A DNA stretch of 64,000 nucleotides from Fibrobacter sp. UWT2 (GTDB lineage Bacteria; Fibrobacterota; Fibrobacteria; Fibrobacterales; Fibrobacteraceae): assembly GCF_900142545.1 (NCBI RefSeq), contig NZ_FRBF01000003.1, positions 186,001 through 250,000 on the forward strand, read 5' to 3'. Positions within the stretch are counted from its first letter, which is position 1, and every line of letters starts with the position of its first letter. The translations under genes were made by a program, and so were the position numbers. Below, piece after piece: positions 34,418-48,562 of the stretch. The notes under the pieces are model-generated. The model had not been told where the DNA came from and ran no database searches. It was given only the letters and a program-made list of their open reading frames with translations.

Positions 34418-36265
34418 ATGAATTACTCAAAAATGGCTGTGCAGTTTGTCTGCAAAATGGCAATGCCGCTCGCCTTGATGTTCGCGGCCTGTTCCACTGA
34501 CGAAGGGAATACCATTTCAAAGGTGGAAACGACTCCGGGAACGCAGATGGGAGGCTCTTCGGAAGAGCCGAGTGTTATCGCGTACGAAAATATCTCTTTG
34601 AGAGGGCGTGCTTATTATGCGCCTGCAAAAAGTGAAACCAAGCCTTCTCTGGAAAACTTGGATGCCTCTTTCCCGCAGGATGTCTTTGGGGCGGGCGGTT
34701 CGGTAACGCTGAAAGAGTTGGATTCAACAACATTGGAATGGATCGATGGCGCGTCTTATACGGCGGAGATCGACGGTGCTGTAGAAGATTCTGTGACCGG
34801 AGAGATGTGTCCGAGTAATAATGGCTCAATCCAGTTTGACAGTGTTTCTCTAAACAGCCCGGTTGTCATGCTGATTGCGACTTCTGACGATATTTCTTTG
34901 CGTGCGATTCTTGATTTGCGAGACACAAATTCTTTTGTTGTTGATGCCTTGTCTCATTTGAAGGCTTATCGCCTTCAAAAACTGGTTGCTTCTGGGGAGT
35001 CTTTTGCGTCGGCGAAGATTCAGGTAGAAACTGAAACGGCGAATATGTTTGGTTTTTGCGGACAGGGGACGCTTGAAGCTGCTGATGTTCGTGAAATGCT
35101 GAATGAATTTCCGTTTGAATTGTTGCAATCAATAAAAGAGGATCTCGGTAAAACAGGCTCAATTGCGGGACTCTCTGAAAGTACAAAAGAATCTATGCGT
35201 TTCTATGCGTTGCGTTCGTATTTTATGAAGGTTTCGCTGTTTCCGGAATCGCAGTTTGAAAGACTCGACGAAGCTGCTGTCTTGTTCTATCAAGAAAATC
35301 TGAAAAAGAAACAGTATTTGCTTAGTATGCTTGCTAGAGTGTATGGGTATGACTGCACGTCGGCAAATGAAGGAGCGCTTGTTGAAGTTTATAAGAATGA
35401 GACTCTCTTGAAATGCCATGAAGGAGACTGGGAGTTAGTTGATAATCGTGTCGCTCAGTTGAATGTTTCTTCGACCATGGGGACTATGATTGATTCAAGA
35501 GATGGTCAAACCTACAAGACGGTCAAGCTTGAATATGATGGTATTTCGCAGACGTGGATGGCGGAAAATCTGAACTATGTTACGGAAAAATCGAGTTGCT
35601 TTAGAGATGATTCGTCGTATTGCTCGGTGTATGGCCGCATGTATTCGTTCTTCCCGCTGGATTCGATTTACAATAAATATGCGTCAGAAGAGGACTGCGT
35701 TGCAGATCGCATAAATGTTTGGCTGGCGGAGTATCGTGCACTTGCGGACTCGTTGGATGAAATTGATCCGTTGAGTGAGGACGATTCCCTGCGTTTTGTA
35801 GACGAAGCGCATAGGCTCTGTAAGGAACTTGGCGAAAGTCCGGAAAATCCTGACAATGTGAATTGGAGCAAGGTGATTGATTCTCTGGATGTGCTGAACT
35901 ATAATGTATGTCCTGAAGGTTGGCGTATCCCCTCGTATGAAGATTGGGAAGCCTTGTTGACTCATGTCGATTATGACTTGCTGCATTCCGCTAATGGGGA
36001 TCCGGTGGGCTTTGGGCTCGAAACTTTGGGAATTGTCCGTGGCTCAAATGGCAATTATAGAATGACGATAATGGGAGGCGCTAGCTACCTGTTTACGCCG
36101 AGACCCACGCCTGAAGAATATCTGCAGCCGGGGATGCCGTATATGGGAGATGCGATAGGAATGATTTATACGTCGGCGTCTCAATTGAATAATGGCTTTT
36201 TAGGTACTGGATATACGTATGCGATGTGGAGTCGCGGATTTGTCCGCTGCATCAAAAACGACTAG
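34418..36265 (+). CDS. FISUMP-domain (TIGR02145) lipoprotein
   Basis: A 615-residue lipoprotein: signal peptide with lipobox FAAC (Cys about 26), a 300-residue helical and acidic middle region of unknown type, then the Fibrobacter major paralogous domain from about 355 (MIDSRDGQTYKTVKLEYDGI, WMAENLNYVT) through CPEGWRIPSYEDWEALL to the C-terminal RGFVRCIKND. The domain belongs to the C-type-lectin/formylglycine-like fold group and may bind ligands at the cell surface; the function is not known. An extra segment (about 430-480, with Asp/Leu-rich helices) interrupts the domain between YGRMYSF and CPEGW. AGGAGG precedes the ATG. Co-transcribed with the TIGR02147 gene. Confidence 0.88.
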   Translation: MNYSKMAVQFVCKMAMPLALMFAACSTDEGNTISKVETTPGTQMGGSSEEPSVIAYENISLRGRAYYAPAKSETKPSLENLDASFPQDVFGAGGSVTLKELDSTTLEWIDGASYTAEIDGAVEDSVTGEMCPSNNGSIQFDSVSLNSPVVMLIATSDDISLRAILDLRDTNSFVVDALSHLKAYRLQKLVASGESFASAKIQVETETANMFGFCGQGTLEAADVREMLNEFPFELLQSIKEDLGKTGSIAGLSESTKESMRFYALRSYFMKVSLFPESQFERLDEAAVLFYQENLKKKQYLLSMLARVYGYDCTSANEGALVEVYKNETLLKCHEGDWELVDNRVAQLNVSSTMGTMIDSRDGQTYKTVKLEYDGISQTWMAENLNYVTEKSSCFRDDSSYCSVYGRMYSFFPLDSIYNKYASEEDCVADRINVWLAEYRALADSLDEIDPLSEDDSLRFVDEAHRLCKELGESPENPDNVNWSKVIDSLDVLNYNVCPEGWRIPSYEDWEALLTHVDYDLLHSANGDPVGFGLETLGIVRGSNGNYRMTIMGGASYLFTPRPTPEEYLQPGMPYMGDAIGMIYTSASQLNNGFLGTGYTYAMWSRGFVRCIKND

Positions 36266-36443: not shown

Positions 36444-37199
36444 ATGAAACCTGGGAAGACTGAACTCCGTCTGAATGCTGAAATCGAAAAACGCGGTGCG
36501 CTTTTTGCCGTGCTGCTGGATCCCGATACGTCTGACGAAGCCGCCTTTGTGAAGGCGGGCGCTATGGCCGCCGAAAACGGTGCCGACCTCTTGCTGGTGG
36601 GCGGTTCTTACCTAGGTAACTTTACGCTGCCGAAGCAGGTGGCTGCCCTCAAGGCGAACGTGAACTTGCCCGTGGTGCTGTTTCCAGGTGGCGCTTCGCA
36701 GGTGGTGCCTGGCTTTGACGCGATGCTCTTTATGACGCTTGTGAGTGGCCGTAATCCGAATTACCTGATCGACGAACAGGTTCGCGGTGGCGCACTCGTG
36801 CGTGCCTTGAATATGGAAGCGATTCCGACGGCCTACCAGCTGATCAACAGCGGCAAGCGTACGACTGTTGAATATATCAGCGGTACCATGCCGGTGCCTG
36901 CCAATAAGCCTAAGCTCAGCATGGTGAACTCCATTGCGGCCGAACTCATGGGCATGCGCTATGTGTATCTGGAAGCTGGCAGCGGTGCCGAAGAGCCCGT
37001 GCCGGTAGAACACATCGCCTACACCCGCAAGGCAACCGAAATGACGATTATGACCGGTGGTGGAATCAAGGATCCGCAGACAGCCGCTATCCGCGTGGCT
37101 GCCGGCGCAAACATCATCGTGACCGGCACCCTCTGGGAAAAGGTGGAAGACCCGAAGCTGTTGGCTGAATTTGCCTCCGCAATTCACGTGAAAGGCTAG
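36444..37199 (+). CDS. Geranylgeranylglyceryl/heptaprenylglyceryl phosphate synthase family protein
   Basis: A 251-residue TIM-barrel prenyltransferase that in archaea and some bacteria joins sn-glycerol-1-phosphate to a polyprenyl diphosphate, the first ether-lipid step. Motifs: LLDPDTSD near the N-terminus, ADLLLVGGSYLG, VVLFPGG, YISGTMPVPANKP, YLEAGSGAEEPV (G1P binding) and TGGGIKDP. ATG 36444 is chosen because AAGGA lies 7 nt upstream and the family begins here; the frame extends further upstream but without family sequence. It is preceded by a terminator and followed by dispersed repeats (37206-37243). No other archaeal-type lipid gene is in the window. The family is certain; product chain length is unknown. 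Confidence 0.9.
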   Translation: MKPGKTELRLNAEIEKRGALFAVLLDPDTSDEAAFVKAGAMAAENGADLLLVGGSYLGNFTLPKQVAALKANVNLPVVLFPGGASQVVPGFDAMLFMTLVSGRNPNYLIDEQVRGGALVRALNMEAIPTAYQLINSGKRTTVEYISGTMPVPANKPKLSMVNSIAAELMGMRYVYLEAGSGAEEPVPVEHIAYTRKATEMTIMTGGGIKDPQTAAIRVAAGANIIVTGTLWEKVEDPKLLAEFASAIHVKG

Positions 37200-37349: not shown

Positions 37350-37628
37350 ATGAAAAAACTCGTGATTGTGACTTATGTGCTCCGTGCGCTGGGCTTTGTG
37401 CTGGTGCTTTTGATGCTTTTCGGGCATAGCATTGTCTTGAATATGTTCCCCGGACTCGAGGGCCATTCGATCAATCCGATATTCTATACGGGCGTGGCAT
37501 GCTACGCCGTGGGTGCGATCATCCATTTCTTTATCAAGAAGCAAGAAAGGGAAGAACGCCGTCGCAGAGAAATCGCAGAAGCCTCGGAACGAGCCTTTGG
37601 TAAAAAGTCCGAAGATTCGGATAAGTGA
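37350..37628 (+). CDS. Small two-helix membrane protein
   Basis: A 92-residue protein with two transmembrane helices (about 5-24, IVTYVLRALGFVLVLLMLFG, and about 42-62, NPIFYTGVACYAVGAIIHFF) and a highly charged cytosolic tail (KKQEREERRRREIAEASERA). ATG 37350 is chosen because GAGG lies 6 nt upstream; the longer frame from 37296 lacks a ribosome site. It is the first gene of a six-gene plus-strand run ending at 44245; the ABC ATPase begins 11 nt after its stop. No family is recognised. Confidence 0.7.
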   Translation: MKKLVIVTYVLRALGFVLVLLMLFGHSIVLNMFPGLEGHSINPIFYTGVACYAVGAIIHFFIKKQEREERRRREIAEASERAFGKKSEDSDK

Positions 37629-37639
37629 TTGGGTTGTTT

Positions 37640-38551
37640 ATGATTAAGATTGAACATTTGCATAAGACGTACCGCAGCGGTTTCTTGACGAAACCGAAGC
37701 TTGCGCTTAAGGATGTGAGCTTTAGTGTGGAACCGGGGCAGGTCTACGGATTTATCGGGCCGAACGGCGCGGGCAAGTCCACGACTATCAAGGTGCTTAC
37801 GGGTCTTTTGAATTTTGAATCGGGCAAGGTTTTGGTGAACGGAATCTCGCCGCGAGATGTAAAGAGCAGGCGGTTTATCGGTTACTCTCCGGAACAGCCG
37901 TACTTCTATGATTATTTGACGGGTCGTGAACTCTTGCAGTTCTACGGTAAGTTGGTCGGTCTTTCCGGGGCGGAACTCAATAAGCGCATCGACTGGTCGC
38001 TCGACTTGCTGCATGCGAACAAGGACTGGATTGATCGTCGTCTGCGTTCGTACTCCAAGGGCATGATGCAGCGCGTGGGCATTGCACAGGCGATCCTCGG
38101 CAAACCGAAGCTGTTGATTCTCGACGAACCCATGAGCGGTCTCGACCCGATGGGCCGTCGCGACGTGCGCGAAGCAATTATGGAACTCAACCGCACGGGT
38201 GTGACGATTTTCTACTCAAGCCATTTGCTCAGCGATGTGGAATCGATTAGCCACAAGGTCGCGATGATTGTCGATGGCAAGATCGTGCGTGAAGGTACCG
38301 TAGACGAAATTACGGAATCTTGTGGCGTGGAATACCATGTGCGAACCCGCGAAGCGATTCCGCAGGCAGAACTGCCTGAAGGTGTTTCGCCTGCCGGTCA
38401 TCCGCAGGAATGCGTTTGTGCAGACGACGCTGCCCGCGACCGCTTGCTGCGCTTCTGCTTGGAAAAAGGAATTGCGGTGGAGCGCATGGACCACAAGCGC
38501 CCGAGCCTCGAAGACATTTTGACGGAGGAAATTGCCCGTGCAGACGCTTAA
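37640..38551 (+). CDS. ABC transporter ATP-binding protein (ABC-2 type)
   Basis: A 303-residue ABC ATPase of the NodI/CcmA class paired with an ABC-2 permease. Walker A GPNGAGKSTT (about 37-46), signature YSKGMMQRVGIAQAI, Walker B LLILDEPMSGLDP, and the switch histidine in FYSSHLLSD. The start could be ATG 37640 or the in-frame ATG at 37625; 37640 gives the usual family N-terminus (MIKIEHLHKTYRSG). The C-terminal ~80 residues contain no extra recognisable domain. Its stop lies within the permease gene (14-nt overlap). Substrate unknown. Confidence 0.93.
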   Translation: MIKIEHLHKTYRSGFLTKPKLALKDVSFSVEPGQVYGFIGPNGAGKSTTIKVLTGLLNFESGKVLVNGISPRDVKSRRFIGYSPEQPYFYDYLTGRELLQFYGKLVGLSGAELNKRIDWSLDLLHANKDWIDRRLRSYSKGMMQRVGIAQAILGKPKLLILDEPMSGLDPMGRRDVREAIMELNRTGVTIFYSSHLLSDVESISHKVAMIVDGKIVREGTVDEITESCGVEYHVRTREAIPQAELPEGVSPAGHPQECVCADDAARDRLLRFCLEKGIAVERMDHKRPSLEDILTEEIARADA

Positions 38552-39341
38552 GCATATCGGCATTATTGCCCTCAATACGTTCCGCGAATCCATTCGCGAC
38601 AAGATTCTTTATAACATCGGGTTTTTGGCCATCGCCATGACTTTGTTCAGCATTGTGCTTGGTGAATGGTCGGTGTTTGACCGCGCCTACGTGATCAAGT
38701 CCACGACTCTTTCGGTGATGAGCCTTTCGGGCTTGTTGATTTCGATTTTCGTGGGCATTAGCCTAGTGCAAAAGGAAATCCAGCGCAGAACAGTGCTTAC
38801 GCTGTTGTCGAAACCCATTAGCCGAGCCTCATTTATCGTGGGCAAGTACTTTGGACTTTTGGCGGTAGTGGCGGTGCACCTGACGCTGTTGACCGGCATT
38901 TACTACGTGATGCTGTTCCTCACGGGTTCCGCTCCGACGCTTAGTCTGCTTACGGCCATCTACCTGATTTTCTGCGAAATGGCGGTGGTGATTGCAGTGG
39001 CGCTCCTGTTCAGCAGCTTCAGCAGCACGGTGCTTTCGGCACTCTTCACGCTGGGTGTCTACTTTGCGGGCCACTTGAGCGACCAGCTCTTGGAACAGGT
39101 CCGCTTTGCCACCCGCATGGGCGAACTCAACGGAACGTCGAGCATGCTTTTCCAGAAAGCCGCCGAAGTCATTCACGCGATTTTCCCGGGACTGTACCGC
39201 TACAATGTGACGACTTACGTGGTGCATGGCGTGGCGCTCCCCGATATGTATGTGTTCTGGAATAGCATTTATGCGCTGGGCTACATCGGCTTGTTCCTCG
39301 CGGTTGCAAGCTGGTGGTTTAGCCGGAGGGACTTCTTATGA
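38538..39341 (+). CDS. ABC-2 type transporter permease
   Basis: A 267-residue membrane protein with six predicted transmembrane helices (for example LSGLLISIFVGISLVQKEIQ followed by RRTVLTLLSKP, the usual ABC-2 cytosolic motif). GTG 38538 is preferred because GGAGG lies 9 nt upstream; the in-frame TTG at 38532 is only 3 nt from it. It overlaps the ATPase gene by 14 nt and the following PilT-like gene by 4 nt (ATGA), so translation is tightly coupled. Such ATPase/permease pairs export lipids, polysaccharides or toxic compounds, or act in gliding motility (GldA/GldF); the role here is unknown. Confidence 0.88.
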   Translation: MQTLKHIGIIALNTFRESIRDKILYNIGFLAIAMTLFSIVLGEWSVFDRAYVIKSTTLSVMSLSGLLISIFVGISLVQKEIQRRTVLTLLSKPISRASFIVGKYFGLLAVVAVHLTLLTGIYYVMLFLTGSAPTLSLLTAIYLIFCEMAVVIAVALLFSSFSSTVLSALFTLGVYFAGHLSDQLLEQVRFATRMGELNGTSSMLFQKAAEVIHAIFPGLYRYNVTTYVVHGVALPDMYVFWNSIYALGYIGLFLAVASWWFSRRDFL

Positions 39342-40954
39342 GAAACCAATACATGGCGAAAGTCCTTGTGCATAACAAGGTCGTTACAGAAGCTCAGGTT
39401 AAAGCCCATTGGGGTGAAGTTACCGACAAGAAGGATATTGGTCAGGTTCTTGTAGATGCAGGAATCCTTCCGCCTCCGATGTACATCAAGGTGCTTGCCT
39501 TTGTGAAGAATCTTGAGGCGAAGGCTGCCGCCGAAGGTGGTAGCGCTCCTGCCGCAGCACCTGCAAGTGTTGCTTCCGCGGCTCCGCAAAAGCAGTCAAC
39601 CGCACGCTTCGAGGCTCCTCCGGCCTCGGCCCCGTCGGTAGCGCCCGCACAGCCCGCTCCCTCCGAAGGTTTACAGATTGAAGGTAACAGCAGCTTGTAT
39701 GGCGAAGTTTCGACCTCCAATGTGGAAGTCGAAGCGGTCGCGGGCCTCGAATCGACCAGCATCAGCACGGTGCAGGTGCAGGCCGAAGCCGAAGAAGAAG
39801 CAACTGGCGAAGATGCCGAAAAGTTGCCGAGCCGCTTTGCGATTTTGACCGGCGAAGGAACGCCCGTCGAAGCTCCTGAAAAGATTCGCCCGATGACGAA
39901 CCTTTCGCAGATTATCGCTTTCGCCCGTAAGTTCGGTGCAACGGACATTTACCTGTATGCGGATCGTCCGGTGGTGATGCGCCAGTCGGGCGCGCTCTTT
40001 GTCGCCTCGGATGATGTCCTAGATCTGTCCCGCATCAATGAACGTTTGGACGAAGCTGCCAAGGGATTCTCGGACGGCTACAAGATTGTTGTCGGTAAGA
40101 ACTTTAGCAAAACGATTGGCTTGGCCGGTGTCGGTCGCGCCCGTATCACGGTCACGTGGAACGGCACCAATCCGAGTGTTTCGATTCGCGTGATTCCGCA
40201 GGAATCGACGACACTCGAAAACTTGTACCTGCCGGCATTCTGCAACCAGTTTACGGAACTGAACAGTGGCCTTGTACTTGTGGCGGGCCCTGCAGCTAGC
40301 GGTCGCTCGACGACGATTTCCACTTTCGCCGAAACGATTGCAGCTAATCGTGATGTTTATATCCAGACGGTTGAAAAGCCTATTGAACGTGTGCTCCAGA
40401 ATCCGCGCGGCGCCATTGCCCAGCGTGAAGTCGGCTTGCATGTGCGTTCGGGTGTCGAAGGTGTGGAACTTGCCATGCAGAGTGGCGCCGATGTCATCTT
40501 GTTCGACTATCTGGAAAATATGGATGAACTTGCAATGCTGTTGCGCGCATCCAATGCCGGCGCCTTGGTATTCGCCGTAACGGCGGGCAACAACATTCAC
40601 GCTCTGCTTTCCCGTTTGCTTTCGTCGGTGTCTGCCGAAAAGCGTACGGCCTTTGCGAACTCGCTCGCTGAACAGCTCAAGGGAATTATCGTACAGCACT
40701 TGATTCCGATTGTGCAGAATCAGGGCCAGGTGCTGGCTGTCGAAGCTGCCAAGATGAATTCGACGATGGCGAACATGCTCCGCCGCGGCGAGATCTCGCA
40801 GCTTTCTGCTTCGATCAGCAGCCAGAAGGATCAGGGCATTTCGCTGGATGATTCTTTGCAGAAGTGCGTGGAATCCGGTTACATTGAAGGTGCCGAGGCT
40901 TGGAAACGCGCCTGCGACAGTCGCCGTTTTGCCGCTTACAGGGCTCAGAACTAA
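39338..40954 (+). CDS. PilT/GspE-like ATPase with degenerate nucleotide-binding site
   Basis: A 538-residue protein: a short N-terminal domain like that of GspE/PilB (about 1-60), an Ala/Pro/Ser-rich linker (about 64-160), then a PilT-type core (from about 185, ATDIYLYADRPVVMRQSGAL). The core is clearly homologous (TVEKPIERVLQNPRGAIAQR for PilT TIEDPIE...QREVG), but key residues have changed. Walker A reads GPAASGRSTT, with Arg323 in place of the catalytic Lys. The Walker B glutamate is absent (VILFDYLENMDEL) and the His box is replaced by VTAGNN. It is probably a regulatory or structural pseudo-ATPase. GGAGG precedes ATG 39338, which overlaps the permease stop. Confidence 0.82.
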   Translation: MRNQYMAKVLVHNKVVTEAQVKAHWGEVTDKKDIGQVLVDAGILPPPMYIKVLAFVKNLEAKAAAEGGSAPAAAPASVASAAPQKQSTARFEAPPASAPSVAPAQPAPSEGLQIEGNSSLYGEVSTSNVEVEAVAGLESTSISTVQVQAEAEEEATGEDAEKLPSRFAILTGEGTPVEAPEKIRPMTNLSQIIAFARKFGATDIYLYADRPVVMRQSGALFVASDDVLDLSRINERLDEAAKGFSDGYKIVVGKNFSKTIGLAGVGRARITVTWNGTNPSVSIRVIPQESTTLENLYLPAFCNQFTELNSGLVLVAGPAASGRSTTISTFAETIAANRDVYIQTVEKPIERVLQNPRGAIAQREVGLHVRSGVEGVELAMQSGADVILFDYLENMDELAMLLRASNAGALVFAVTAGNNIHALLSRLLSSVSAEKRTAFANSLAEQLKGIIVQHLIPIVQNQGQVLAVEAAKMNSTMANMLRRGEISQLSASISSQKDQGISLDDSLQKCVESGYIEGAEAWKRACDSRRFAAYRAQN

Positions 40955-40963
40955 GGGGATATT

Positions 40964-41962
40964 ATGGCTACAGAAATTGAATCTTTGCTGGAATATACGC
41001 TGAATGTGGGCGCCTCTGAATTGGTGATTACCGAAGGTGCTGCCTCTGCGGTACGCTTGGCGGGTAAGGTTTGTGCCATTCCCGATGCTCCTGCGGTTGA
41101 AACGGGTTCCCTTCGCAATTTCTTGAATTCTATGGATGGCGAATCGGGTACGGTCATGGGCGGCCCCTGGTGCGGCTCCAAGTGGCGCGTGCATTATAAC
41201 CGTACGGCTTTGGGTAGCTCCGCTATTTTCCGCCCGGTACTCGATGAATGCCCGGACTTTACGGCGCTGGGCGTTCCCGAATCCATGATGAACTTGCTCG
41301 GAATCCGCTCGGGCCTGGTGGTCTTTAGTGGCCCTGCCTGCAGCGGAAAGACGACCTCTGCGACGGCTTATGTGTCGGCTCTTTGCCAGTCGGGCATTAT
41401 GCGTGTGAGTCTGTTGGATCCTGATGCCGAAATGCCTGTAAAGCGCGGCGACAGCTTGGTGCTTGAAAATTCTACGGGAACGATTCCCGAAAAAATGGAA
41501 CAGGCGCTCCGCAGTGGAATCGACTTGATTTGGCTCGGTAATTTCGAAGGCCAATCGCTGATTCCGGTGCTGCGTGCTGCTGAAGCGGGTGCCCTTGTTG
41601 TGCTTACGGTGACTGCCGGTAATGCGGTGGGCGCGCTCGATGCTTTGCTTTCTTCGGAATCACTTGAAAACCGCGATATGGCATGCAATATGCTCGCTTC
41701 TGTACTGAAGGCTGTCGTGGTGCAGCGTTTGTTGCCGGGTGCCCAGGGCGTTGTGCCTGCTTGGGAAATCCTTTACGGCACGCAGAACGTGGCTTCTAAA
41801 ATCCGTAGTGGCGAACATTACACCTTGCCTTCGATTATTGCGGCTTCCGCTTCCGAAGGCATGATGCTTATGGATGACTGCTTGGCGGAACTTGTAAAGG
41901 CGGGCTATGTATCTCAGGAAGATGCAATCCGCGTGGTTTCGAATCCGGCTCGCTTAGGGTAA
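40964..41962 (+). CDS. PilT-like ATPase paralogue, Walker A intact, other motifs altered
   Basis: A 332-residue PilT-family protein lying 9 nt after its larger paralogue. Walker A is intact (GPACSGKTTSA, about 125-135), but the Asp box is lost, Walker B lacks the glutamate (IDLIWLGNFEGQS), and TVTAGNAV replaces the His box exactly as in its partner. The N-terminal PAS-like half (GASELVITEGAASAVRLAGK) and the C-terminal helical part (DDCLAELVKAGYVSQEDAI) are conserved. The pair could form a mixed hexamer in which this subunit binds nucleotide. No pilin or pilus-assembly gene is adjacent. AGGGGATATT is the likely ribosome site. Assignment is by motif reading. Confidence 0.82.
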   Translation: MATEIESLLEYTLNVGASELVITEGAASAVRLAGKVCAIPDAPAVETGSLRNFLNSMDGESGTVMGGPWCGSKWRVHYNRTALGSSAIFRPVLDECPDFTALGVPESMMNLLGIRSGLVVFSGPACSGKTTSATAYVSALCQSGIMRVSLLDPDAEMPVKRGDSLVLENSTGTIPEKMEQALRSGIDLIWLGNFEGQSLIPVLRAAEAGALVVLTVTAGNAVGALDALLSSESLENRDMACNMLASVLKAVVVQRLLPGAQGVVPAWEILYGTQNVASKIRSGEHYTLPSIIAASASEGMMLMDDCLAELVKAGYVSQEDAIRVVSNPARLG

Positions 41963-41965
41963 TTC

Positions 41966-44245
41966 GTGCGGAATGGGTTAGGCAAATTTGTCGCGGCGAT
42001 TGCGCTGTGCGCAACGTGGGCTTTCTCGGGCGAGAATGCCGCATCAAAAGGTGCACCGTCTCTAGATTTGCTGAAGGCGTCTGCTGATTCTATTGCGAGT
42101 GCGACCGCTACGGATTCCTCAAAGGCGAATTCACTCAAGACGGTTCTCTACTTGGGTGGCGGTGAGCGTTCTCCCTGGTTCCAGCTGGGCGTGCTTTATG
42201 CTATCGAAGAGTACGGCATCCCTGTAGATTCCGTGGTGGCGACATCTTGGGGCGCATGGATTGCTTCTTTGTGGACGCGAGGCGTTCCCCTGGATGATAT
42301 CCAGGTGCTGATGCTGGATTCTACTATCGCACCCTTTGTGGGTCATGATCTTACGGCTGCAGAAAGCGAATATGGCTATCAAAAGCGAGATGCTTATGAA
42401 ATGCCGATTTCGCTGTCGGGAATGCCTTCGATCAGATCCCGCTACAGTGTGGTGATGGATACTTCCCGCTCGATTCACGTCGAAAAGAAAGCTCTGACGA
42501 TGGATTCCATGCAGGTGGTGCGTGCCCTTGCAAAGCTGCGTTTTCAAGAAAGCCTTTACCGTCAGCGACAAAATGCCCGCATCCCATTGTCGCTGCAGTC
42601 TTGCGAATCGGGAAAGCCCGTTGTCGTCGAAAGTACTATTCCGCAGGTGATTGCTTCGCTCCCGCTCTGGGGACAAGATTCTGCAGGAGTGTCTGGCGAA
42701 CTTTGCCCTTATTACGCCTTGCCTATCGAAGACAATGCGCGAGAGCTTTCGATTATCGTCGTGTCTGATCCGTTGCGTGCACCTATCGTGGGCGATGAAC
42801 GGATGCGCTTGATCAAACAGCATGCTGGCGAAATTCTTGCGAGTCAGCCCGGCGTTATTGTTCGTGCCCATACGATTCTAGATACGAATCGTGCGGTTTG
42901 GATTCAGTCCGGATTTTCTTCTTTCGAAAAGCAACTGTCCAGTTTCAAGATCTTGAATGGGCGCCGTCAAGATTATTCTGCGGGCCGTATCTCGGCGAAA
43001 CCTTGGTTCCGCTTCGAGCCTTCTTATAACGGTCTCTCTTCCGAGGTGCAAAATGCGGTGAAGGCTTATTGGGTGGAATCCGATACGGCAATGATCGCTC
43101 CCGAGAATTTCGCCTTGGATTTGCTGCAGAATCCTGCTTACGATTCCTTGCGTTTAGATATGCAGCCTAGCGGTAATGTCGCTGTTGAAACGGCGGTACA
43201 TCCGACGCTGGACCTTGCTGCGGGTGGCTTTGGTTCCAATATGATTGGCCCCAACGCCTACGCCGAAGCGACGGTGCATTATGTGGACCATGTCGAAATT
43301 GAGTTGGTCTTGGCTGGCTTCTGGGGTGGAAATTCCTACGGAATTCGCCCGCGCCTGAATATTTCAAAGTTGTGGAACCGCCATTGGGATTTGCAATTTG
43401 GCTACGATTACATGAAGCTGGTTCCGCTGAAGTCTTATAACCGCAATATCAATCGGGGACTTCGTATAGAATCTGAAGAACGCAGTGACTTGACGATGAA
43501 CCTGTTGTATACGGTGGACCGTTTCCAGCGGGTTTCGGCGGAGTTTATGTTTGGTTCCAGGTACTATGACCTGGATACGGCTTACTATGGCGATCGTGTC
43601 ATCAAGACTTATCCCGTGTCGCCTATGCTGCATTACCGCTACTTGAATGGCGCTGACGACAACTGGTTTGCTGATGACGGCTACGTTCTGAATGTCTGGG
43701 GTGGCTTTGAATCGATTGGCTTTGATGATGGCATTATCGATGTGGTGCCCATCTACTGGAAGCTTCTAGCCGATGCCCGCTATACGATTTCGCCGGTGCG
43801 TTTCGTGACATTGAATGTGGCTGCTGCTGGCGCCATTGAACGTTACCACGACGAAGGCCACGGTTATGTTTCGCCTAAGTCCATCGGGAAGGCTCCTCTG
43901 GATGTTGCGTACCGTCAGCATGCCGCGGCAACGCCTTGGTCTACCGAATGGTACCATCCGGAACTTTCATCTCATGAATATGCAATGCTGCGGTTTAACG
44001 GAGGCTTGCACGGGAACTATCTAGGCGCTTGGTTATTCGGTGCCTACTACCACGACTTCGAAGGCAGCCCCGAAGCGGAATTGGACGAAAACAAATTCGT
44101 GTTTGAACCGGCTCTGCGTTTTGCATACCGCTCGGTCACCGCTTATGCGGGAATCAGCCGTATCGTAGATTACGGCACCTTTGGTGATTTGACTCATTTG
44201 AGCGGATACAATTACTTTATCCGCATCGGAAACTATAGCTTTTAA
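41966..44245 (+). CDS. Patatin-like phospholipase/outer-membrane protein
   Basis: A 759-residue exported protein with an N-terminal signal peptide (ending about WAFSGENA), a patatin-like domain (about 55-300) and a C-terminal region rich in alternating aromatic and polar residues (about 400-759) that should form a BamA/PlpD-type beta-barrel, ending in the aromatic FIRIGNYSF. Patatin features: oxyanion loop GGGERSPWFQLG, nucleophile region VVATSWGAWIASL, and a DSAG aspartate (about 234). The nucleophile box is A-T-S-W-G rather than the usual G-T-S-x-G. GTG 41966 is 3 nt after the stop of the PilT-like gene; no ATG is better placed. It ends the operon and converges on tsaD. Confidence 0.8.
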   Translation: MRNGLGKFVAAIALCATWAFSGENAASKGAPSLDLLKASADSIASATATDSSKANSLKTVLYLGGGERSPWFQLGVLYAIEEYGIPVDSVVATSWGAWIASLWTRGVPLDDIQVLMLDSTIAPFVGHDLTAAESEYGYQKRDAYEMPISLSGMPSIRSRYSVVMDTSRSIHVEKKALTMDSMQVVRALAKLRFQESLYRQRQNARIPLSLQSCESGKPVVVESTIPQVIASLPLWGQDSAGVSGELCPYYALPIEDNARELSIIVVSDPLRAPIVGDERMRLIKQHAGEILASQPGVIVRAHTILDTNRAVWIQSGFSSFEKQLSSFKILNGRRQDYSAGRISAKPWFRFEPSYNGLSSEVQNAVKAYWVESDTAMIAPENFALDLLQNPAYDSLRLDMQPSGNVAVETAVHPTLDLAAGGFGSNMIGPNAYAEATVHYVDHVEIELVLAGFWGGNSYGIRPRLNISKLWNRHWDLQFGYDYMKLVPLKSYNRNINRGLRIESEERSDLTMNLLYTVDRFQRVSAEFMFGSRYYDLDTAYYGDRVIKTYPVSPMLHYRYLNGADDNWFADDGYVLNVWGGFESIGFDDGIIDVVPIYWKLLADARYTISPVRFVTLNVAAAGAIERYHDEGHGYVSPKSIGKAPLDVAYRQHAAATPWSTEWYHPELSSHEYAMLRFNGGLHGNYLGAWLFGAYYHDFEGSPEAELDENKFVFEPALRFAYRSVTAYAGISRIVDYGTFGDLTHLSGYNYFIRIGNYSF

Positions 44246-44254
44246 TTGCTGCTT

Positions 44255-45262
44255 TTAAATGGCGAGCGGCATCCAGGGCTTGACTTCGTTGACTGAAATC
44301 AACTTGCCCTGACGCTTGCGGCGAATGGCTGCGGCTGCAATCATGGCACCGTTGTCGGTGCTCAGGCTGCGTTCCGGAATGCAGAACATGATTCCGTGCT
44401 TATCGCAGTAATCTTGCAGGCGTGTGCGGAGCCATGCGTTGGCACTTACGCCACCGCCGACCACGAGAGTCTTCATCTTGGTCTTTTTAAGGGCGGTAAT
44501 CGTCTTGGTCACGAGGCTATCGACAATCGCATCTTCCAGGGAGGCGCAAATGTCGCCGATGTTCTTCTGAATGAATTCAGGGTCGTGCGTTTCGGTGTAA
44601 CGCAGTACAGCCGTTTTCAAGCCGCTGAAAGAAAATTCGCAGTTGTCGTGCACATGGAGGGCGCGCGGAAAATCCACGAATTTGCGGTTGCCGTCTTTGC
44701 CGAGGCGGCTGATGGTAGCACCTGCGGGGTACTTGAGGCCTAGCAGCTTACCGCACTTGTCGAAAGCCTCGCCGGCGGCATCGTCGCGGGTGCGGCCGAT
44801 ACTGGTGTACTTAAAGCCAGGTTCTTCGAGCACGAGTTCCGTATGTCCGCCCGAAACGGTAAGCGTCAGGAACGGCGGCTCGATTTCGGGGTGCGTGAGC
44901 CACGCGGCGGCCAAGTGGCCTTCCAAGTGGTTCATGCCGTAGGCCGGAATTTGCAAGTCGCGGGCGAGGCCCTTTGCAAAGCTTGCTCCCACCAGAAGCG
45001 GTCCCATAAGGCCCGGACCCGTCGTGTAGGCGATTGCATCGATATCCTTGAGTTCGATGCCAGCTTCCTTGACGGCTGCTTCTGCAATCGGCGAAATCTT
45101 TTGCAAGTGCGCACGTGCAGCGATTTCAGGAACCACGCCGCCGTAAAGGGCGTGTTCGTCAATCTGACTGTAAAGAGGATTCGAAAGAACTTTTACGGGA
45201 TCGTCTTGCAGAATGGCGCAGGCGGTTTCGTCGCAGCTGGATTCAATTCCAAGCCAAATCAT
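44255..45262 (-). CDS. tsaD: tRNA N6-adenosine threonylcarbamoyltransferase TsaD
   Basis: Transfers the threonylcarbamoyl group to A37 of ANN-decoding tRNAs (t6A). 335 residues, the usual length, with the N-terminal MIWLGIESSCDETACAIL, the metal-binding HxxGH as NHLEGHLAAAW, the ATP site SGGHTELVLEE, CEFSFSGLKTAV, and VVGGGVSANAWLR. The start ATG 45262 overlaps the stop of the upstream YbbR-like gene by 4 nt (ATGA), so the two are co-translated. Partner genes tsaB, tsaC and tsaE are not in the window. Confidence 0.97.
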   Translation of the reverse strand: MIWLGIESSCDETACAILQDDPVKVLSNPLYSQIDEHALYGGVVPEIAARAHLQKISPIAEAAVKEAGIELKDIDAIAYTTGPGLMGPLLVGASFAKGLARDLQIPAYGMNHLEGHLAAAWLTHPEIEPPFLTLTVSGGHTELVLEEPGFKYTSIGRTRDDAAGEAFDKCGKLLGLKYPAGATISRLGKDGNRKFVDFPRALHVHDNCEFSFSGLKTAVLRYTETHDPEFIQKNIGDICASLEDAIVDSLVTKTITALKKTKMKTLVVGGGVSANAWLRTRLQDYCDKHGIMFCIPERSLSTDNGAMIAAAAIRRKRQGKLISVNEVKPWMPLAI

Positions 45263-46266
45263 GGTGCAACCTCTTCGAGAGAGTCCGCGGTAGCGACAGG
45301 CTTGGTTTCTTTCTTGCGGAGCGTCACCTTTTCGGGTTTCAGCTGGATAGCCTTGATTGCCATTTCGCGGTTGATGTGGGCCGGGAGCGTGAGCTTCACC
45401 GTCGGAGAAAGACTGTCTGCGTCTTCGATGGCGAATCGGTTGTATTCCATCACCAATTCAATGTTCTGGGCGGTAATAGAGTCAAGTACCTGTTCGCCAC
45501 CCGTGATTTCCACGGAAAGGCTCTTGGGCTCCAGGGAATAAACTTGTCTGTCGAAGAATCCGATGAGGCTTACGGGGATACTGTCGTAAGTGCGGCTGCT
45601 CATCTTCTGGATGTTCACCGAAATCTTGACCGAGGAATCGCTCGGCGAAACGAATGCCGGCAGGTTGCTGAAGTCCAGCGGAATGGTGAATTCCTGGCTG
45701 GCGTGCAAGGTGTCAAAGAAAGAAGAATCGGTCGGAATATCGATGATGCGGGTAAGGGCGTTGCGTGCGCCGGACACCAACAGCTCTTCAGGGGAAATCG
45801 CAGGCTCGTCGGCAATCAGGTAGCCTTGGGCCGCCGTAAATGTGGCGACGGATTTAATGGGAACGTTTCTTGTAATGCGGGTATCAATATCGAGGTCTAC
45901 GAACAAAAGCTGATTTTCGGGTTCCACGAAGTGAATGTCCGGGAATCCTGCAGAAACAAAGTTCTTGCTGTCCAGGTGAATGCGCTTTGCACCCAGTTCG
46001 GCTTGCTGCAGGTCTACTACCATGGCAATGGAATTTTGTTTGGGATCGTTCACGATGTTGTTCAAACGAATCAAATCCCAGGACTTGCCTTCGACGGTAA
46101 TGTGCAGGGAGTGGGGCGGTTTCGAAGCAATCGCCATTGTTTCGGGAAGTTTAACAAAGTTCAAAGGGACACTCACCGAAAGCTGGAAATCCTTTTGAGA
46201 TATGACAAGAAACCAGAGGGCGATGCCAAATATCAGTGCGGTTATTTTTAGAACGATGTTTCCCAT
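45259..46266 (-). CDS. YbbR-like domain protein (CdaR family)
   Basis: A 335-residue membrane-anchored protein: one N-terminal transmembrane segment (VLKITALIFGIALWFLVISQ) followed by tandem YbbR-type beta domains (VSVPLNFVKLP, VTVEGKSWDLIRL, DIDTRITRNVPIKSV, EELLVSGARNALTRI). In Firmicutes the related CdaR controls the diadenylate cyclase CdaA; no cyclase gene is adjacent here, and tsaD follows instead. It is divergent from ftsX with only 44 bases between the starts. Role in this organism unknown. Confidence 0.85.
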   Translation of the reverse strand: MGNIVLKITALIFGIALWFLVISQKDFQLSVSVPLNFVKLPETMAIASKPPHSLHITVEGKSWDLIRLNNIVNDPKQNSIAMVVDLQQAELGAKRIHLDSKNFVSAGFPDIHFVEPENQLLFVDLDIDTRITRNVPIKSVATFTAAQGYLIADEPAISPEELLVSGARNALTRIIDIPTDSSFFDTLHASQEFTIPLDFSNLPAFVSPSDSSVKISVNIQKMSSRTYDSIPVSLIGFFDRQVYSLEPKSLSVEITGGEQVLDSITAQNIELVMEYNRFAIEDADSLSPTVKLTLPAHINREMAIKAIQLKPEKVTLRKKETKPVATADSLEEVAP

Positions 46267-46310
46267 AGAACTCTCGAATGACTGTCTAAAATTTAGTTAT
46301 AATTCACCCT

Positions 46311-47198
46311 GTGTTCGGACAACTAGGCTATTTAATATCGGAATCTTTTCGCGGAATGCGGCAACACCGTACGGTAATCCTTCCGTCGTTTGCCACAATC
46401 TTCCTGTGTTCCCTGCTTCTGTCGGCTTCCTTTACCGCTTTCGGGGCGGTGATGCGGATTCTTTCCATGGAAAAGAACCTGTATGCCCTTGAAGCCTTCC
46501 TGCCGGAATCTGTAGGCGAAGATTCTCTGACGGTCATCCAGAATCGCCTGGAACATACCAAGTTTATCGATTCGGTGACTTTTGTGAGCGCCGATTCCGC
46601 CTTAGCCGATTTCCGCAAGCATTTTTCGGGCGAAATGCTGGACCTTGTAGAAGGTAACCCCATTCCGCCGTTCTTCAGGGTCACCCTAGTTGAAGACCAT
46701 AAAAATCCGGCCACCCTGATCGAAGTGAAAAACAATCTTTCCCGCATGGACTTTTTCGAAGAAGTGCAGGCTCCGGTGCAGTGGGTCGAAAAAATTTCGG
46801 CCTGGAAGTTCCGCATGCTGTTCTGGCCCATTTGCGTCAGTGTTCTGCTGCTGTTTACCCTTTCCTTGATTATCTGCAATTCCGTAAGGCTTTCGCTTCT
46901 TTCTCGCAGGCTCCTGGTCGAAAATATGAAGTATGCGGGCGGTAGCCATTTCTTTATCGAATTCCCGTTCGTACTGCAGGGAGCGTTCCAGGGTGTCGTG
47001 GGTAGCGGTCTTGCCGTTATTTTGCTCGCGGTCGTTTTAAACTCGGTGGCGGATGCGTTCCCCATTGTGGCTGCGAACCTGACTGGCCTTGGCTCTTGTC
47101 TTGCCTTAGTGGTCCTTCTGGTGACGGCTCTTTCGGGCTATTTCAGTTACCGTACGGTGCGCGGGTTCCTTTCGATCAAGCGCAATGAACAGGATTAA
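46311..47198 (+). CDS. ftsX: Cell division protein FtsX
   Basis: A 295-residue FtsX-family membrane protein: N-terminal helix (FATIFLCSLLLSASFTAFGA), an extracellular loop with LPESVGEDSLTVIQNRLEHT and QAPVQWVEKI, then three C-terminal transmembrane helices. FtsX with FtsE transmits a division signal to a periplasmic murein hydrolase or its activator. The start is GTG 46311: a TATAATTC box (46298-46305) ends 5 nt before it, consistent with a leaderless message. The EnvC-like gene follows 2 nt downstream, which strongly supports the FtsX assignment; FtsE is not adjacent. Confidence 0.9.
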   Translation: MFGQLGYLISESFRGMRQHRTVILPSFATIFLCSLLLSASFTAFGAVMRILSMEKNLYALEAFLPESVGEDSLTVIQNRLEHTKFIDSVTFVSADSALADFRKHFSGEMLDLVEGNPIPPFFRVTLVEDHKNPATLIEVKNNLSRMDFFEEVQAPVQWVEKISAWKFRMLFWPICVSVLLLFTLSLIICNSVRLSLLSRRLLVENMKYAGGSHFFIEFPFVLQGAFQGVVGSGLAVILLAVVLNSVADAFPIVAANLTGLGSCLALVVLLVTALSGYFSYRTVRGFLSIKRNEQD

Positions 47199-47200
47199 CG

Positions 47201-48562
47201 ATGCGGCTTGTGGTTTTGCTTTTTTGCCTGTTGCTGGGGGTTGGCGCCGAAAACGCCTACGCTAAGCCTGCCGCAAAAAACACCAAGAGTGCTCCGGCAA
47301 AATCCGCTCCTGCCAAAAAATCGACGAAGGCCACGACAAAGTCTGCGTCCAAGTCTTCTGCGACAAAAAAGACTGACGCCCAGATTAACGAGCAGAAAAA
47401 CGCCCTGAAAAAGTTGGAGTCGGACTTGGCTAAAAAACGCCAAGAGCTGGCGCTCCTCGAAACCGAAGAGAAAGGCGTGCTGAATACGATTTCGATTCTC
47501 GACCAGAACTTGAACCAGACCCGAACTTACCTCTCGGAACTCTCCAAGAGCGAAGTCATGCTGGAACGGGCTCTTGTACAACTTTCTGCAGACATTGATT
47601 CCTTGGACCGCAGAATCGAGACTCGCCGGGAAGCCATGAAAAAGCGAATCCGGACGCTCTATGTCAGCGGCCGCAACAGCGAGGCAAGAGTCCTATACGG
47701 CCTGCTTACGCAACAAGGGAACCCCGACCGCCAGGTGTATTGGGTGCACCATATTCTGAACCAGGACCAGCAAGAAGTAGAAGTCCTGCAACAGCTGGTG
47801 CAAGAACGGGATGAAAAGAAACAAATGGAATCGGCTCACTTGGACGATCTTAAACAGATGCGTTCCAAGAAGGCTGCCGAAGAAAAGGGCCTAGTTTCCC
47901 AGATGAGCGGCCAGGAAAAAATGCTCATGTCTTTGAAGCATGACCAGAACATGCAACGCCGCGCCCTGAAGGAATTCGAACAGAACCAGAAGACCATGCT
48001 GGCCCTTATCAAGAAGCTCGAAGAAAAGCGTAAAAAGGAAATCGAGCAGGCCAAGAAAGACGAGGCTGCTCGCAAGGCCAAGGAAAAAGCCGGCAAGGAT
48101 AAAAAGAAGGACAAGAAGACTCCGACCAAGACGGTGGAAAAGCCGAAGGTCACCGTGGCTGAATCGGTAAAGGGCCCCAAGTGTACGCCGCTGAAGGGTG
48201 ATGTCATCAGTAATTACGGTTTGCAGGAACATCCGGTGCTGCATATTATGACGCGTAACCTGGGCGTCGAAATCCGCGGAAAACGCGGCGCTGCCGTTCG
48301 TGCCGCCGCGGCGGGAACGGTGGTGATGGTGGCCGAAATTGACGGCCGCGGCCCCTCTGTCATTATTGAACATGAGGGTGGAACTTACTCCGTTTATGGT
48401 CACCTTGCGTCAATTCGTGTGCAAGAAGGCAAAGAAGTGCGAAATTGCGAAGAAATTGGTGAAGTGGGCGATGTTGCCTCTCTAAATGGAATTAAATTGT
48501 ACTTCCAAGTGAGCGAGGGTACACAGACCGTGGACCCCTTGCAGTGGTTGAAACAGAAATGA
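47201..48562 (+). CDS. envC: EnvC-like murein hydrolase activator (M23/LytM domain)
   Basis: A 453-residue periplasmic protein with a signal peptide (MRLVVLLFCLLLGVGAENAY), a Lys/Ala/Ser-rich stretch (about 25-60), a long coiled coil (about 60-300), a Lys-rich hinge and a C-terminal LytM domain (about 325-453). The LytM active site is degenerate: the usual HxGxD reads RNLGVEIRG, so the first zinc-binding His and the Asp are missing, though YGHL remains. This matches EnvC, which has no hydrolase activity itself but activates amidases at the septum under FtsEX control. It follows ftsX by 2 nt and overlaps holB by 4 nt (ATGA). Confidence 0.88.
   Translation: MRLVVLLFCLLLGVGAENAYAKPAAKNTKSAPAKSAPAKKSTKATTKSASKSSATKKTDAQINEQKNALKKLESDLAKKRQELALLETEEKGVLNTISILDQNLNQTRTYLSELSKSEVMLERALVQLSADIDSLDRRIETRREAMKKRIRTLYVSGRNSEARVLYGLLTQQGNPDRQVYWVHHILNQDQQEVEVLQQLVQERDEKKQMESAHLDDLKQMRSKKAAEEKGLVSQMSGQEKMLMSLKHDQNMQRRALKEFEQNQKTMLALIKKLEEKRKKEIEQAKKDEAARKAKEKAGKDKKKDKKTPTKTVEKPKVTVAESVKGPKCTPLKGDVISNYGLQEHPVLHIMTRNLGVEIRGKRGAAVRAAAAGTVVMVAEIDGRGPSVIIEHEGGTYSVYGHLASIRVQEGKEVRNCEEIGEVGDVASLNGIKLYFQVSEGTQTVDPLQWLKQK

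Follow-up and report, generated by a model that had tools for sequence, protein, structure and literature searches.

PilT-like proteins with altered ATPase sites are conserved within an ABC exporter and outer-membrane barrel operon of Fibrobacter

The operon reported here, from Fibrobacter, a rumen fibre degrader and a major degrader of cellulose, has its closest described counterparts in the PilT and PilU retraction ATPases of type IV pili, in PilGHI, an ABC system of Myxococcus xanthus, in the MshEN domains of PilB and GspE, and in the patatin-like Omp85 proteins (PL-Omp85 or type Vd; PlpD, FplA). The ATPase motif residues that are altered in our proteins are reported to be conserved throughout PilT-like ATPases, where the glutamate after Walker B has a catalytic role (PMC5424180). 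In Vibrio cholerae, PilT Walker mutants still supported retraction when PilU was active, and Walker A mutants still bound PilC and each other in two-hybrid assays (PMC6821130). PilGHI is cited as essential for the passage of pilin across the inner membrane (PMC3724824). All Fibrobacteres genomes studied had type IV pilus genes, and three PilT proteins were counted in F. succinogenes S85 (PMC4704652). We analysed 64,000 nucleotides of Fibrobacter sp. UWT2 (assembly GCF_900142545.1, contig NZ_FRBF01000003.1, positions 186,001 to 250,000 of the forward strand; hereafter the window), in which two adjacent genes, here T1 and T2, encode PilT-fold proteins with altered ATPase sites, between the genes of an ABC exporter (ABCa, ABCp) and of an outer-membrane protein (PAT). 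Coordinates are collected in Table 1.

The reading frames at 39338-41962 had been recognised in a preliminary description of the window as two PilT homologues of an ABC-transporter/outer-membrane operon, and this is borne out. Both matched the PilT/PilU model TIGR01420 (T1: E=3.6e-54, 184 bits; T2: E=2.8e-38, 132 bits) under its cut-off of 319 bits, and PilT and PilU were the top PDB matches of both in phmmer, T2 aligning to PilT across its full length. The arginine that the preliminary description saw at the Walker A lysine of T1 is found in 45 of 47 T1 proteins (one, in G147, has lysine, and in one the position is lost), and the glycine of the atypical Walker B is aspartate, likewise in 45. 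None of the 47 has the catalytic glutamate; histidine takes its place in 36 and tyrosine in the window copy (FDY). The glutamate of the ASP box is almost invariant in T1, as are the arginine fingers assigned by alignment (R267 in 47/47, R269 and R284 in 46/47). In the 36 T2 proteins compared, the catalytic position holds aspartate (29) or asparagine (6, including the clade of the window), that is, one or the other in 35; the arginine fingers are R75 (35/36) and R90 (31/36), and the ASP-box glutamate and the HIS box are lost. The HIS-box histidine is gone from T1 as well, the canonical LHT being replaced in both proteins. The earlier claim of the same loss in both therefore stands for the positions, the glutamate after Walker B and the HIS-box histidine, and fails for the substitutions, which differ (Tyr in T1, Asn in T2). 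The string VTAGN, proposed as one shared motif, was rejected as a signature of common origin: relative to the common GALV it lies one residue further on in T2 than in T1, and other members carry variants of it (V[TA]xGN; V[TN]AG[NS]). On the question of whether T1 is the sister of T2 or descends from N-domain-bearing PilT-like proteins of other Fibrobacterota, tree support was weak (72/60) and branches were long.

From S110 to PAT every overlap or gap is at most 20 nucleotides: ABCp and T1 overlap by four (39338-39341), as noted previously, nine separate T1 from T2 and three separate T2 from PAT. The order S110-ABCa-ABCp-T1-T2-PAT was invariant in about 60 sampled Fibrobacteraceae loci, where the flanks vary, and was seen in Fibrobacter, F. 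intestinalis, AD312 and other genera, with S110 upstream of ABCa in nearly all relatives. The T1/T2 pair was present in nearly all of the 80 Fibrobacter genus genomes searched, the exceptions being incomplete assemblies, and in seven further genera; the co-occurrence search that the preliminary description proposed thus found the pair, the ABC genes and PAT conserved together across Fibrobacteraceae. The motifs of ABCa were intact in 77 of 79 sampled relatives.

Purifying selection on T1 and T2 is strong, near the level seen for the ABC genes. Pooled over the F. succinogenes clade, the ratio of nonsynonymous to synonymous substitution rates (dN/dS) was 0.026 for the N-domain of T1, 0.045 for its PilT core and 0.069 for T2; the ABC genes gave 0.027 and 0.037, and PAT 0.105. 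Genus-wide it was 0.07-0.11 for the folded domains of T1 and for T2 (T1 core 0.106, T2 0.111); the ratios are approximate, since dS is close to 1 or higher for many pairs. As the motif losses are family-wide and the genes are under purifying selection, the window copy is not simply decayed, the possibility that the preliminary description named as its refutation, and local decay of this copy was rejected by both dN/dS and residue conservation. That T1 and T2 are, across the family, dying pilT duplicates not yet deleted is very improbable. They have diverged faster than live PilT (58-65% identity for T1 against 93-95% for PilT in the same distant genus members), and two relatives have lost the ATPase domain or the P-loops (G043 and G146, respectively); however, frames are open in the sampled genus loci, dN/dS is 0.045-0.11, the odd residues are themselves conserved and the operon has been kept over many genera.

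We favour, with a probability of about one half, the reading that T1 and T2 are a conserved PilT-derived pair of pseudo-ATPases, scaffolding or regulating the ABC/outer-membrane module and probably linked to the pilus machine. The genes, their order, the motif losses and the purifying selection are shown here, and the folds of T1 and PAT are shown as models. The pseudo-ATPase part of this reading is preferred because the substituted residues are conserved in each protein (Arg, Asp and His in T1, Asp in T2, at the frequencies given above), and because two relatives have gone further: G146 (genus g8) has all six cassette genes with both P-loops erased and the patatin GxSxG gone, and G043 (g2) retains of T1 only the N-terminal domain, immediately upstream of PAT. 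T1 and T2 keep the PilT fold and most subunit-contact arginines and are probably unable to run a hydrolysis cycle, T1 perhaps still binding nucleotide as a switch or sensor. On the cytoplasmic side they would belong to an envelope module that has the ABC-2 exporter as its only clearly intact ATPase and PAT, a patatin-POTRA-Omp85 barrel, as its outer-membrane end. Their role is most likely structural or regulatory: as a non-hydrolysing PilT-like ring or adaptor they may dock on the ABC transporter, on the pilus platform (PilC, live PilT) or on both, connecting the exporter to the PAT export route and possibly also to the pilus machine; ring formation, docking partners, substrate and pilus coupling are what we infer here. 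By analogy, the V. cholerae PilT/PilU pair is a precedent for hydrolysis-defective partners. Rather doubtful is the bolder version, an undescribed trans-envelope machine in which the ABC-2 exporter is joined via a ring of two dead PilT paralogues to a pseudo-patatin Omp85 barrel, the motor fold having become a passive coupler.

Pilus coupling was suggested by neighbouring genes in relatives. In agreement with the preliminary description there are no pilin genes at the locus itself, but a type IV pilus set is encoded on contigs of the genome other than C3, which holds the window: pilT-pilC on C7 and a second PilT on C5, both PilT copies with intact motifs, and GspE/PilB-like ATPases on C1 and C16. 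In G150, pilT-pilC comes directly after PAT in the same orientation, about 70 nucleotides past its stop codon; G057 has, 2.4 kb downstream of the cassette, genes for a GspE-like protein and a secretin; at L218, about 5 kb separate pilT-pilC from the ABC genes; elsewhere in the phylum, G020 and G038 have a type IV pilin close to the ABC pair; and 13 genus genomes carry pilC on the contig of T1, 13-40 kb away from it. All 147 genomes bearing ABCp also matched PilT, and ABCp was missing from each of the five genomes that gave no PilT match, four of which belong to one genus. As the cassette or its ABC genes stand beside pilT-pilC, secretin or pilin in relatives, a link of the cassette to type IV pili is plausible, not proven. 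The earlier proposal that the PilT folds serve something other than pilus retraction is thus supported in the sense that they are not the retraction engine, while independence of pili is unsupported given the neighbours in G150, G057 and G020/G038 and the distribution of ABCp. In G160-G163 (genus g15), four near-complete small genomes, no match to PilT, PilC, ABCp or PAT was found, as if pilus and cassette module had been lost together.

Several observations weigh against a pseudo-ATPase pair that is coupled to pili. T2 retains the Walker A lysine and mostly an aspartate at the catalytic position, and, judged by these residues, may have residual ATP hydrolysis. The pilus links are not conserved, and in the genome of the window pilT-pilC and the cassette are on different contigs. 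At least ten genomes have T2SSF/PilC with ABCp not detected, and the genus-level proximity of pilC may be one ancestral arrangement. The residues of T2 invite the alternative of a mixed T1/T2 ring that still hydrolyses ATP as a slow, specialised retraction or export motor, T2 supplying lysine and an aspartate as weak base and T1 the ASP-box glutamate and arginine fingers. We consider it improbable: retention is indeed complementary (T2 Lys in 34/36 and Asp in 29/36, the T1 residues almost invariant) and the two are always encoded together in the cassette, but the base of T2 is asparagine in the window's clade, the operon is kept in G146 without either P-loop, and in PilB a single packing unit contributes both the Walker A and the ASP-box residues (PMC5424180). 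The inconstant pilus links bear on another alternative, less readily dismissed though still on the unlikely side, that T1 and T2 serve the ABC exporter and PAT only, for example as a platform for lipid, lipoprotein or polysaccharide export. Such a scaffold would suit a cassette order whose conservation far exceeds that of any pil-gene link, the combination of a small membrane protein, an ABC-2 exporter and an Omp85-type barrel, which suggests export across both membranes, and the genera that keep ABC and PAT without live T1/T2. Against it, pilT-pilC, secretin or pilin genes repeatedly adjoin the cassette or the ABC genes in separate lineages, and ABCp is absent from the five genomes without PilT matches.

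The AlphaFold2 model of T1 (predicted local distance difference test, pLDDT, 78) comprises an N-domain of four helices, a disordered linker (residues 67-160) and a full PilT fold, with a template modelling (TM) score of 0.91 to Geobacter PilT4 (6ojy/6ojx; Foldseek TMt, PAS-like N2 and RecA-like core). Searched alone, the N-domain matched no Pfam domain. It aligned in register with the MshEN layout of the PilB-like protein of the same genome (hhalign probability 70%, E 4e-5), sharing the two-repeat four-helix layout and spacing of the MshEN domains of PilB/GspE. These have the RLG arginine and the terminal glutamine in both repeats (motif definition, PMC5013675), whereas in T1 the Arg and Gln positions of both RLGxx...Q motifs were replaced in 22 of 22 sequences. 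As these residues are replaced, binding of cyclic di-GMP (c-di-GMP) by the N-domain is not expected, and control of T1 by this route is disfavoured. The PilB/GspE-like ATPase of the genome (L101, 8064-10109; G000, C1) has several MshEN-like repeats, one with the RLG motif, and c-di-GMP control of this live assembly motor is therefore plausible.

PAT was correctly called a patatin-like barrel protein: it matched PF01734 (7.7e-8) and the PlpD profile (5.9e-10), and its AlphaFold2 model (pLDDT 86) has a patatin domain, one POTRA and 16 C-terminal barrel strands, the nearest solved folds in Foldseek being TamA and BamA. The patatin serine was kept in 43 of 45 PAT proteins, while DG[GA] was not at its expected place, where the sequence alignment has SGE; the serine was also lost in G044, G146, G043 and G053. 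To judge from these motifs, PAT is itself probably catalytically impaired. A PHROGs search returned one unnamed family only.

Other relatives hint at how the cassette came together. In G053 (g4), PAT and the ABC genes stand apart with no T1/T2 beside them, and in the class-level relatives G154-159 the ABC genes are close to a PAT-like gene, while a tandem pair with the Walker A lysine and the glutamate after Walker B is encoded elsewhere in the genome. From this series, together with G146 and G043, we infer an order of events in which a core of ABC genes and PAT seems to have existed first; live PilT-like proteins were probably recruited to it afterwards, and then lost ATPase function while being retained. 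Similar tandem pairs occur elsewhere in Fibrobacterota (G154-159, G028, G038, G019, G020). Like T1 and T2 they are adjacent genes, the first with a T1-like N-domain and the second of about the size of T2; unlike them, both members have the Walker A lysine and the glutamate after Walker B, the second is canonical, and no ABC or PAT gene adjoins. In the tandem pairs L087-L096 of other Fibrobacterota, the first member has asparagine at the expected HIS-box histidine and keeps the Walker A lysine and the glutamate after Walker B.

Just upstream of the cassette, at 36447-37199, lies a gene of the PcrB/heptaprenylglyceryl-phosphate synthase family (NF003198, above cut-off), which is found at a variable distance upstream in many relatives. 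It is preceded by a gene (34418-36265) for a 615-residue product with a lipoprotein-like signal, whose position is taken in relatives by a weakly similar (28%) or unrelated gene. Downstream (44255-48562), TsaD and YbbR-like genes on the minus strand are followed on the plus strand by FtsX-like and EnvC-like peptidase genes, all named by eye; this flank differs among relatives.

Table 1. Positions in the window of the cassette genes and of the motifs and domains discussed in the text.
Feature	Position	Strand	Evidence or remark
S110, small membrane protein, 92 aa (internal ATG)	37350..37628	+	Opens the conserved cassette
ABCa, ABC ATPase	37640..38551	+	PF00005 4.3e-29; Walker A GPNGAGKST, signature YSKGM and Walker B LLILDEP intact
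ABCp, ABC-2 type permease	38532..39341	+	PF12679 5.9e-10 and alignment
T1, MshEN-like helical N-domain, disordered linker and PilT core with degenerate ATPase site	39338..40954	+	
T1 N-domain, residues 1-65, four helices, MshEN_N-like	39338..39532	+	c-di-GMP-contact Arg and Gln absent
T1 Walker A GPAASGRST, Lys to Arg at residue 323	40286..40312	+	Arg in 45/47 relatives
T1 Walker B region GADVILFDY, canonical Gly to Asp, catalytic Glu to Tyr	40484..40510	+	
T2, second PilT-fold protein	40964..41962	+	TIGR01420 2.8e-38 and motif tally
T2 Walker A GPACSGKTT, Lys kept	41330..41356	+	Lys in 34/36
T2 Walker B LGN, catalytic Glu to Asn	41534..41542	+	Asp in 29/36 relatives
PAT, signal peptide, patatin-like domain, POTRA, 16-stranded Omp85-type barrel	41966..44245	+	
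PAT patatin-like domain	42131..42865	+	GxSxG Ser kept (ATSWG); Ser-Gly-Glu where the Asp of DG[GA] is expected

Our searches of PubMed Central turned up no description of PilT-family members that are inactive and conserved, and neither patatin nor PilT is mentioned in the main texts of two papers on the envelope of F. succinogenes and on cellulose. If our reading of T1 and T2 is true, a pair selected for across the family in a rumen cellulose degrader would be a motor fold recruited as scaffold or switch, and would suggest how pili, exporter and outer membrane of Fibrobacter are coupled during attachment to cellulose. Counts of K02669 'PilT' in Fibrobacter may then include pseudo-motors.

Compared with the PilT/PilU retraction ATPases, T1 and T2 share the fold (TM 0.91 for T1), a tandem order as in pilT-pilU and the arginine fingers. 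They differ from them in the loss of the Walker A lysine (T1), of the catalytic glutamate and the HIS box (both) and of the ASP-box glutamate (T2), in scoring below the family cut-off, in the extra N-domain of T1, and in having an ABC exporter and an Omp85-type barrel in their operon in place of pilus genes. With M. xanthus PilGHI the cassette has in common an ABC-2 ATPase and permease, likened by gene type and not by sequence, and in G020 and G038, only those two, a type IV pilin is close to homologues of the cassette ABC pair; unlike in that system, no PilG was found in the cassette, and T1, T2 and PAT are without counterpart there. PAT has the patatin domain, single POTRA and 16-stranded barrel of the PL-Omp85 proteins PlpD and FplA, and is set apart from them by the patatin aspartate not found at its place and by its fixed operon with an ABC exporter and the putative pseudo-PilT pair.

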